Shown here piece after piece: positions 10,558-14,356 of a stretch of DNA of 44,075 nucleotides. The first letter of the stretch is position 1. Every line of letters begins with the position of its first letter. The translations under genes were made by a program, and so were the position numbers. Under the pieces are notes generated by a model. The model worked only from the letters and a program-made list of their open reading frames with translations, was not told where the DNA came from and did no database searches. Source of the DNA: Bacteroidales bacterium (GTDB taxonomy: Bacteria; Bacteroidota; Bacteroidia; Bacteroidales; UBA932); the NCBI GenBank assembly GCA_016284265.1, contig JAEEOM010000076.1:68522-112596 (forward strand), written 5' to 3'.

Positions 10558-10959
10558 ATGAAAAAGATCCTGTTCCGCGCGCTTCTGGCGCTCTGCTTTT
10601 TTGCGTTACCTGCCTGCCAGTCGACTGACAAACGGGTCCGTGGCACGGCGCAGCAGTTTCTGAAAGCCTATTACTCAGCCGACTATGCTGCTGCGGCGAC
10701 GTTGTGTACTCCCGCTTTTGCCGGCCGGGTTTCCAAAGGCGCCGAAGCGCAGGCGCGTGTTCCGGAAGAAATTGCACAAAAAATGAAAGAGGCCGTGTCC
10801 CAGACCTCTTTCAACATCGTTTCCGTGGAAGTGGACAAGGAGGCCGCCCGGGCCGTTGTCCGCTATGAACTTGCAGTACCGATGCTCGAACGGCCGGTAC
10901 CCAAGCAGCTCCTGCTACAGTTGGAAGGCCGCACGGCAGCGGTCGACGGCATCGAGTAA
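10558..10959 (+). CDS. Small lipoprotein, DUF4878/NTF2-like
   Basis: Lipobox [32 protein letters not shown]...; 3 bp after the mutS2 stop. Confidence 0.6.
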
Positions 10960-12156
10960 TTCCCAACCGAAGAATTGGACCTTGCGCCGGACGGTCTTTC
11001 CGTCGCGGATCATCTCGACTTCCTGTTCATAGGGGTCGCGGCCCATGTGGCCGTAGGCCGCCGTGGGCTCGTAGATCGGGTTGGTAAGGCCGAATTGTTC
11101 GATGATGGCTGCGGGCCGCAGGTCGAAGAGTTCACCCACCTTGTCCGCGATTTGGCCGTCGGTCAGGGCGACGTGTGCCGTGCCGTAGGTATTGACGAAA
11201 AGGCTGACCGGCCGTGCCACGCCGATGGCGTAGGAAACTTGTACGAGGATTTCGTCGGCCACGCCGGCCGCCACCAGGTTCTTGGCGATGTGGCGGGCTG
11301 CGTAGGCGGCGCTGCGGTCCACCTTGCTGGGGTCCTTGCCAGAGAATGCGCCGCCGCCGTGGGCGCCGCGGCCGCCGTAGGTGTCGACAATGATCTTGCG
11401 GCCGGTCAGGCCGGTGTCACCGTGCGGGCCGCCGATGATGAACTGTCCCGTCGGATTGACGTGCAGGATCATGCCCTCCCGGAACAGGGCGGCGTTCGCT
11501 GCGCTGAGACGGGCCTTGACGCGCGGGAGGAGGATCTGTTCGACATCCTGTCGGATGCGGGCCTGATCGACGTCGGGATCGTGCTGGGTGGAGAGTACGA
11601 GCGTGTGGACGCGACGCGGCGTGTGGTCGTCTTCGTATTCAAGGGTGTACTGGCACTTGGCGTCGGGTCGGAGGTAAGGCATCGGGGAGGGACTCTCCCG
11701 GCGGATGCGGGCCAGTTCGATGAGGGTCACGTGTGCCAGAGTGAGCGGGAGCGGCATGTATTCCGGTGTCTCGTTGCAGGCGTAGCCGAACATCATGCCC
11801 TGATCGCCGGCACCCTGCTCCTCTTTCGTGGCGCGGTTCACGCCCCGGGCGATGTCGGCGCTCTGCTCGTGCAGGGCGGAGAGAATGGCGCAGGACTCCG
11901 CATCGAAATGGTATTCGCCCTTGGTATAGCCGATACGCCGGATCGTCCGGCGGACAACGCTCTGGATATCGACCCAGGCATCGCGGGAAGCGGCTTCACC
12001 GCAGATAACGGCAAGGCCGGTACTTACAAAGGTTTCACAAGCGACGTGTGCGGCAGGATCCTGCCGGAGGAAGTCGTCGAGAATAGCATCGGAAATCTGG
12101 TCGGCCACTTTGTCCGGGTGGCCCTCTGAAACGGATTCAGAAGTGAAAAGATACAT
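10915..12156 (-). CDS. metK: S-adenosylmethionine synthetase
   Basis: [67 protein letters not shown]. Confidence 0.97.
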
Positions 12157-12159
12157 AAT

Positions 12160-12207
12160 TTTAGCCTTTTTTTAGCGTGGTTGGCAAGCAGTCAAATCCA
12201 TCCACAG
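12160..12207 (-). promoter_or_regulatory. Putative SAM-II-class riboswitch in the metK leader
   Basis: RNA CUGUGGAUGGAUUUGACUGCUUGCCAACCACGCUAAAAAAAGGCUAAA: P1 GUGG/CCAC, GAUUUG in L1, UUGCC able to pair with GGCUAA as an H-type pseudoknot, A-rich L3, AUG 3 nt downstream. Confidence 0.8.
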
Positions 12208-12219
12208 GGTTTAGGGCGG

Positions 12220-12227
12220 CAAAGGTA
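12220..12227 (-). promoter_or_regulatory. -7 box TACCTTTG for metK
   Basis: Matches TAnnTTTG on the minus strand, just upstream of the riboswitch. Confidence 0.7.
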
Positions 12228-12258
12228 GGATATTATTTTAAGATACAAAAAATATTGC

Positions 12259-12266
12259 TACTTTTG
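12259..12266 (+). promoter_or_regulatory. -7 box TACTTTTG for the nuclease gene at 12284
   Basis: Matches TAnnTTTG, 17 nt before the ATG; divergent from the metK promoter. Confidence 0.65.
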
Positions 12267-12283
12267 CAGCGTCGTTTGGATTC

Positions 12284-14356
12284 ATGGAGATGAAATTTCC
12301 GAGACTGCTGACCGTGCTTGCCGCAGTGATGCTTCTGCTGGTATCCTGTGACAAACCCGAACCCGAGAAGGAGACCGTCACGGTGTCCGTCTCGCCGGTG
12401 TCCCTATCGTTCCCCACGGAAGGCGGGACCGAAACGATCTCTGTCACTTCCAATGGTTTATGGTATGCAAAAGCCGAGGGATCCTGGCTGATTCTCTCCG
12501 CCACTTCCGGTTCCGGGAACGGCAGCATCCAGGTAACTGCCTCCGCCAATGCAGGAGACGCCCGGAACGGCCAGGTGATCTTCGAGACCGCCGACAATAA
12601 GACCACGGTCAATGTCTCCCAACTGATGTACGTCAAGCCTGATCCGGTGCAGCGCAGCATCAAGGAGGTCCGCGCCCTTTACAAAGGGACCGACTACAAG
12701 ATCACAGACGACATATTCATGGAAGGCACGGTCATCAGTGATTATCGCCGCGACACCGACGGTGGCCTGAACAACTATACTTCAGCCAAGACCATCGTCA
12801 TCTCAGACGGCGAGGCCGGCCTGATGCTCTACTGTTCGGGCGACAACAAGACGTTCGCCCGTGGCCAGAAGGTGCGGGTGCGCCTGCTCGACCAGACCCT
12901 TTCGGTCTACGGCCAGGGTGTGGTCCAGGTCAATGGGCTGCCGCTCGACAATATCCAGTATCTGGGCACGGAAACGCCCCAGGCCAAGGAGATTACCGCC
13001 CTGGAGCTGGTAAGCGGTCAATATGAATGTATGTACGTGGCTGTCAAAGATGTACAGGTCCTCGACGAAGATCTTGGCAAAACTTTCGCTTCCGACTCCG
13101 AGAATACGAGCCTGGCCTTCTCCGACAAGGACGGTGTGAGTTTCGACCTGTTCACCTCGCGCTATGCAACCTTCCGCAGCGAGACCGTTCCTTCGGGCAG
13201 CGGCGTGCTGAAAGGCATCGCCGGCAAGTACGGAGCCCGTTATCAGCTGTCCATTTCCGAAAAGGCCGACTATGCCGGCCTGACCGGTACGCGTTTCTCT
13301 TCGGCGAACTACTTCTACCTGGAGTCGACCGACCGGACGGTCAGCGGCGACGCCGGTACTTTCAACATCAGCCTGGTTTCGTCCGTGGCATGGAAAGCCT
13401 CCTGTTCCAATTCGTCTTTCAGTGTTTCGCCTGCTTCCGGTACCGGCTCCGCGCAGGTCACGGTGACCTACGGTGACAATCCGAGTTCTTCGGAATACCG
13501 CACGGCCGTGATCCGCTTCACCACGGATGATGCATCCGTGACGGACAAGGAACTTCTTCTTACTGTGGTCCAGCAGCCTTTCGAGATGCTGGTCCAGAGC
13601 GAAGTGAAGCCCTGGCTCGAAATGCCTGCCGTCAAGAATGAGGAGGGCAAGGCTTTCTTCAGTCACGACATGACCTGGAAAAACCAGGTTGTGCGCAACT
13701 ATTCTTTCTGGTATGATCTCTCTGGCCGCGTGGCGCTCTGGGTGGCCTATCCGCTCTACAGGGGCATGCTCTCCGGCGTCAAGCGTACCGATAAGTGGGA
13801 ATATGATCCGCTGGTGCCCAAGCGCTATCAGGGAGTCGTGTATACCAGTTACGGAGGCTACGACCGCGGCCATCAGCTGCCGTCTGCCGACCGGCTCTGC
13901 AATGTAGCGGCCAACGAACAGACCTTCTATTTCACGAACATCACGCCGCAGAACGCCGACTTGAACCAGGGGCTCTGGGAACGGCTCGAGGCCCATGTCC
14001 GCGACCGGGTGAATACCTGTGACACACTCTATGTGGTGACGGGCTGTGTGCTGACCACGGAATCCGACCCCACGCCGCAGTATATCAAAGACAACAACGG
14101 CAACGACGTGGCCATCCCCAAGGCTTATTACAAGGTGCTGCTCCGGTATAAGGCCGGGGAAGCCACCGGCGGCTATTCCGCCATCGGCTTCTGGATGGAA
14201 AACAAGCGTTACGGCGACACGTCTCTCTCGAAAGCTTTCGCCCGGACTGTCGACGAGATCGAAACCCTGACGGGCATCGACTTTTTCGTCAATCTGAAAG
14301 ACGAGTACGAAAAGGAAATAGAAGCGAAATACGATGCTACGGCATGGGGGCTATGA
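12284..14356 (+). CDS. BACON / DUF5689-like / BACON / DNA-RNA non-specific endonuclease (NUC1) lipoprotein
   Basis: Lipobox LLVSC; BACON-type repeats (VSPVSLSFPTEGGTETISVTSNGLW...); SIKEVRALYKG...FMEGTVISD; YDRGHQLPSADR catalytic motif and FYFTNITPQNADLNQGLW. Confidence 0.88.
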   Translation: MEMKFPRLLTVLAAVMLLLVSCDKPEPEKETVTVSVSPVSLSFPTEGGTETISVTSNGLWYAKAEGSWLILSATSGSGNGSIQVTASANAGDARNGQVIFETADNKTTVNVSQLMYVKPDPVQRSIKEVRALYKGTDYKITDDIFMEGTVISDYRRDTDGGLNNYTSAKTIVISDGEAGLMLYCSGDNKTFARGQKVRVRLLDQTLSVYGQGVVQVNGLPLDNIQYLGTETPQAKEITALELVSGQYECMYVAVKDVQVLDEDLGKTFASDSENTSLAFSDKDGVSFDLFTSRYATFRSETVPSGSGVLKGIAGKYGARYQLSISEKADYAGLTGTRFSSANYFYLESTDRTVSGDAGTFNISLVSSVAWKASCSNSSFSVSPASGTGSAQVTVTYGDNPSSSEYRTAVIRFTTDDASVTDKELLLTVVQQPFEMLVQSEVKPWLEMPAVKNEEGKAFFSHDMTWKNQVVRNYSFWYDLSGRVALWVAYPLYRGMLSGVKRTDKWEYDPLVPKRYQGVVYTSYGGYDRGHQLPSADRLCNVAANEQTFYFTNITPQNADLNQGLWERLEAHVRDRVNTCDTLYVVTGCVLTTESDPTPQYIKDNNGNDVAIPKAYYKVLLRYKAGEATGGYSAIGFWMENKRYGDTSLSKAFARTVDEIETLTGIDFFVNLKDEYEKEIEAKYDATAWGL

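Follow-up and report, generated by a model that had tools for sequence, protein, structure and literature searches.

A metK gene and its leader

The window (the whole stretch of DNA analysed here, 44,075 nucleotides from a Bacteroidales bacterium) carries on its minus strand a metK gene whose product is a TIGR01034 equivalog (514 bits versus a cut-off of 309), in agreement with a first-pass annotation that had placed a candidate riboswitch before a SAM synthetase gene. Read on the minus strand (12227 to 12154), the leader runs TACCTTTG-ccgcccuaaaccc-UGUGG-AUG-GAUUUG-ACUGC-UUGCC-AA-CCACG-CUAAAAAAA-GGCUAA-AAUU-AUG, and every leader part named in that annotation is present at its position in the sequence. 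The gene and its leader comprise the following features:

12246..12249 (−), TTTG, candidate −33 element, separated from the −7 element by 18 nt (sequence and consensus of PMC7366714)
12220..12227 (−), TACCTTTG, candidate −7 element (TAnnTTTG; sequence and consensus of PMC7366714)
12151..12211 (−), SAM-II long loop aptamer (RF01726 model positions 1-60)
12202..12206 (−), P1 5′ strand, UGUGG (RF01726 alignment)
12193..12198 (−), GAUUUG, conserved L1 segment (RF01726 alignment)
12183..12187 (−), P2 (pseudoknot) 5′ strand, UUGCC, in which UUGC is a defining motif
12176..12180 (−), P1 3′ strand, CCACG (RF01726 alignment and covariation)
12167..12175 (−), L3, A-rich, with an A run at 12173-12167 (−17 to −11 before the AUG)
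12161..12166 (−), P2 (pseudoknot) 3′ strand, GGCUAA, 4 nt before the AUG (positions −10 to −5)
10915..12156 (−), metK, S-adenosylmethionine synthetase, 413 amino acids, start AUG at 12156-12154

Given the candidate promoter elements, the 5′ end of the mRNA would lie near 12216-12212, for a predicted leader of roughly 56-60 nt. The genus's other compact leaders, in which the metK start codon follows the aptamer almost directly, have either TACCTTTG or TATCTTTG at the site of the candidate −7 element. A gene at 12284-14356 on the plus strand is divergent from metK, and TACTTTTG occurs on the plus strand shortly upstream of it (window 12246-12284); thus, the 127-bp gap seems to contain two back-to-back promoters. 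metK and a convergent small open reading frame (10558-10959, plus strand) overlap at their ends by 45 bases (10915-10959).

The leader belongs to the SAM-II long loop family

When the whole window was scanned against the 4227 families of Rfam 15, the sole match at gathering level was RF01726 (SAM-II long loop), which aligns over the full length of its model (1-60) to positions 12151-12211 of the minus strand with 53.2 bits against a cut-off of 44 and an E value, for the whole window, of 1.6e-7. The first-pass annotation had called for a search with Rfam models and had expected the alphaproteobacterial-type family RF00521 (SAM_alpha). That part of its proposal fails, as RF00521 scores 14.3 bits on the leader against a cut-off of 36 (E value of 1.8 in 801 bases) and membership is ruled out by score, whereas RF01726 is the matching family. 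We consider it highly improbable that the leader instead contains another small SAM-class aptamer. SAM-V, which is found in bacteroidetes, has the same pseudoknot and binding pocket as SAM-II (PMC6061858), and the SAM/SAH riboswitch also precedes metK (PMC2864571), but the scan of all 4227 families with E values up to 10 returned only RF01726 and the sub-threshold RF00521 match, and neither SAM-V nor SAM/SAH.

RF01726 was defined in 2010 and reported from Bacteroidetes and marine sequences (PMC2864571), and therefore the window aptamer belongs to a known kind; SAM-II RNAs in the Bacteroides group have been known since 2005 (PMC1273637). In the open-access literature, the RF01726 or SAM-II long loop name was found only in PMC2864571. 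The window resembles the published family (PMC2864571) in aptamer sequence, P1, pseudoknot, A-rich L3, Bacteroidetes host and metK context, and the location expected of RF01726, upstream of a SAM or methionine gene, is here filled by metK. The window differs in its short L3, which lacks the hairpin inserted there in many class-level relatives, in not keeping the P2a stem, and in an AUG that lies 4 nt rather than at least 55 nt behind the aptamer. RF00521 (metA/SAM_alpha; PMC1273637) has the same fold, the same GAUUUG, UUGC and GCUAA motifs and a proposed OFF function; many of its members carry terminators (PMC1273637), and P2a of SAM-II RNAs is often longer (PMC6061858).

RF01726 recurs widely among relatives of the window. 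It was found in 129 of 150 genomes of the same bacterial family, in 197 of the 295 genomes sampled from the order and in 39 of 248 from the phylum, most of the sampled genomes being draft assemblies, and it stands before metK in nearly all loci read. In the genome of the window itself, a draft of 206 contigs with about 88% completeness, one metK copy and one aptamer copy were found. The window's compact type is matched exactly in 15 named genomes, all uncultured Bacteroidales or Bacteroidia assemblies and many of them ruminant-derived. The covariance-model score, the recurrence upstream of metK across order and class, and the covariation described below uphold the earlier proposal of a compact SAM-II-class riboswitch before metK. 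Judged by its sequence, the metK leader of the window is a SAM-II long loop riboswitch, a further member of a described family.

Covariation of P1 and the pseudoknot

Pairing was assessed in 131 unique aptamers, for which P1 pairs 1-4, UUGC and GCUAA were requirements for collection. Invariance of these P1 pairs and of the P2 core consequently carries no evidence, because it was imposed at parsing, and support must come from compensated changes and from freely scored positions. At the third P1 pair, 124 aptamers have U-A and 7 have A-U, a compensated variation (GUGG/CCAC, GAGG/CCUC) that supports pairing. The fifth P1 pair, which was freely scored, lies above all 2000 shuffles. When P1 was not required, its four pairs could form in 161 of 162 unique motif instances, compared with 0-33 of 162 for slid controls. 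Similarly, the pair that extends the pseudoknot is A-U in 112 aptamers, C-G in 11, U-G or G-U in 5 and mismatched in 3, so that it is paired in 128 of 131, a value that no shuffle reaches. All 11 C-G cases belong to the window subclade, where the extra C of UUGCC pairs with an extra G (12166 in the window) in place of the A-U pair of most relatives.

These patterns sustain both helices that had been proposed from the window alone. The P1 pairing GUGG/CCAC is backed by the RF01726 alignment, by compensated changes and by 161 of 162 relatives, and the UUGC(C)/(G)GCUAA pseudoknot by its covarying extension pair. The alignment of relatives' metK leaders that the first-pass annotation had suggested thus finds that both the UUGC/GCUAA extension pair and P1 covary.

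P2a (CUG/CAG in the RF01726 consensus) is not conserved in the window subclade, where its three pairs form in 8, 0 and 2 of 11 aptamers. The corresponding counts are 33, 31 and 31 of 35 in other families, 20, 12 and 7 of 28 in compact leaders, and 55, 52 and 14 of 68 in long leaders from the same bacterial family as the window, where P2a is already weak. We counted P2a as a variable, non-defining part, as it lies outside the nested structure of RF01726 and is weak in translational relatives (PMC6061858).

Extending P1 to GUGGaUGG/CCAaCCAC changes its predicted stability from −2.9 to −7.8 kcal/mol (ViennaRNA), a gain of about 4.9 kcal/mol, and would sequester the CC of UUGCC. The extension is possible only in the window subclade, other compact clades having AA-CCAC without the extra C, and this C equally strengthens the pseudoknot. 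The SAM-free conformer proposed earlier on the basis of this longer stem is a candidate that is possible on energetic grounds but confined to the window subclade. RNAfold, which does not consider pseudoknots, leaves the UAAAAUUAUG part mostly unpaired (roughly 0.7-1.0). A small GCU/GGC hairpin that it predicts within L3 is absent from sister species and was rejected. Another predicted fold pairs P1 with metK codons 2-6; these are conserved as coding sequence, and their conservation is therefore no evidence for the fold.

Two expression platforms in one genus

Counted from GCUAA, the metK AUG lies either 1-5 nt away (12 nt in one case) or at least 55 nt away, a bimodal distribution. In the window, the AUG lies 4 nt past the pseudoknot strand GGCUAA. 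All 12 long leaders of the genus that were scored for terminators carry one, typically of the form GTCAAATC...GATTTGAC-TTTTT, with a 5′ arm exactly complementary to the aptamer segment GAUUUGAC. The stretch GTCAAATC, which is the complement of the GAUUUG segment, forms the terminator 5′ arm in most long leaders of the genus. In such leaders, the arm would pair with the aptamer when SAM is absent, and SAM binding would free it to form the terminator. These terminator-type leaders (L076, L081, L084, L085 and others) share gene, aptamer and genus with the window but possess a platform of 67-94 nt that the window lacks. The window subclade (15 species seen) has no terminator stretch, only AAUU or a close variant before the AUG, and a search from the aptamer to codon 30 found no stable hairpin with a T run in any of 28 compact leaders.

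More distant relatives also have long leaders. Those of the class-level loci L206, L216 and L219-L224, several with an L3 hairpin insert, show no obvious terminator; several contain CTTTAG and GCAAT, the complements of the pseudoknot 3′ strand CTAAAG and of ATTGC, respectively, which could possibly be partners in a SAM-free state. Leaders of L013, L019, L092 and other Bacteroidales outside the family carry CAATCAA-like stretches complementary to the aptamer TTGATTG, and no terminator was detected in them.

A maximum-likelihood tree was built from 110 MetK proteins with a simple model and with bootstrapping not fully settled; on it, five changes (bootstrap range 5-6) are required to account for the compact leaders. 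Five compact clades are supported: the window subclade (100/99), g197 (98/97), g2 (100/96), g203+g199 (100/96) and g204+g206 (95/90). Compaction would thus have arisen about five times inside one family, and the pairing of the compact aptamer is maintained across these roughly five separate clades. No compact leader was found in the order's other families sampled or in the class-level loci read, and long leaders are therefore the likely ancestral state. Pattern matches for compact leaders occur in 9 of 295 order genomes; other than the window genome, these were rejected as chance ATGs inside long leaders, a verdict that rests on the located metK start (L101 has none in the stretch covered). 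Similar chance ATGs were excluded from the family search, and L129, which lies away from metK, matched by chance.

A proposed translational switch

The compact leader is best read as controlling translation, because the terminator is absent and 4 nt separate the pseudoknot strand from the AUG; the first-pass annotation had likewise suggested control at translation initiation. We consider it likely that this compact-platform riboswitch acts directly on the metK translation start, probably as an OFF switch. A limit of 15 nt between aptamer core and start codon has been used to recognize direct translation control (PMC2258182), and the 4 nt that follow GCUAA in the window fall within it. A strong P2a goes with transcriptional SAM-II switches and a weak one with translational switches (PMC6061858), and the weak P2a of compact leaders is consistent with a shift to translational control.

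The start region has features expected to matter for such control. Bacteroidota ribosomes do not use Shine-Dalgarno sequences (PMC6847099, PMC9976891), and in Flavobacterium initiation is aided by A residues at −3, −6, −12 and −13 and by an unstructured start (PMC6847099). Compact leaders of the genus have A at these four positions in 91-100% of cases, and the window has A at all four, with A at −3, −6 and −11 to −17. With ligand bound, SAM-II RNAs fold into a pseudoknot that contains a triplex (PMC6061858). The A run of L3 and the pseudoknot 3′ strand lie in the start region, and RNAfold leaves the UAAAAUUAUG part mostly unpaired; formation of the pseudoknot upon SAM binding would therefore mask the loading site itself.

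We infer from these features that SAM is bound, that binding turns expression off and that the ribosome is blocked. When SAM is absent, the A-rich stretch ahead of the start codon would be largely unpaired, as would the AUG itself, permitting 30S loading on a start region devoid of a Shine-Dalgarno sequence. Abundant SAM would stabilize the UUGCC/GGCUAA pseudoknot with L3 folded onto it, which would bury positions around −17 to −5 and prevent initiation. In this way, SAM would repress its own synthetase.

Most SAM-II switches are transcriptional (PMC6061858), and leaders of sister genus members use an intrinsic terminator set against the aptamer GAUUUGAC; the window riboswitch could likewise act on transcription, by means of a terminator early in metK that escaped detection or by means of Rho, to which an early block of translation could expose the mRNA. 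Such a mechanism appears unlikely, given that none of the 28 compact leaders has a stable hairpin and T run between aptamer and codon 30 and that just 4 nt separate P2 from the AUG. Somewhat less probable again is a relic aptamer that still binds SAM after loss of the terminator while metK goes unregulated. Control can evidently be lost, as in two species of the genus (L079 in G372 and L082 in G443) metK directly follows another coding sequence and lacks the aptamer altogether. However, UUGCC/GGCUAA and P1 are kept in all 15 species seen of the compact subclade while the leader outside the aptamer varies, GUGG/CCAC has changed to GAGG/CCUC with compensation within this subclade, and some five clades converge on one geometry. 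A further counterpoint to translational control comes from S. meliloti, in which a predicted start just behind a SAM-II aptamer is not the real start (PMC9373788). In the window, however, the conserved MetK N terminus begins at the AUG behind the aptamer.

For the metX SAM-II, S. meliloti metA and SAM-V RNAs (PMC6061858, PMC9373788), a ligand-stabilized pseudoknot over the start has been proposed and P2a is short or weak, as in the window. Those RNAs cover a Shine-Dalgarno sequence, whereas the window RNA would cover an A-rich region beside the AUG. It may be, with about equal weight for and against, that the output was swapped some five times in one family by deletion of the terminator-based or other long platform, moving the pseudoknot onto the start codon, and that the A-rich L3 doubles as a ribosome-loading signal free of Shine-Dalgarno pairing. 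If so, ligand binding would mask a start without any Shine-Dalgarno sequence, a natural case of riboswitch translational control in a phylum whose ribosomes ignore such sequences. The aptamer is of an already described kind, and what merits following is how the platform changed repeatedly: the same aptamer before the same gene in close relatives with two outputs makes expression-platform exchange both traceable and testable. In two assemblies, compact and long metK loci occur together (L147 and L148 in G370; L151 and L152 in G300), through either duplication or mixed bins.
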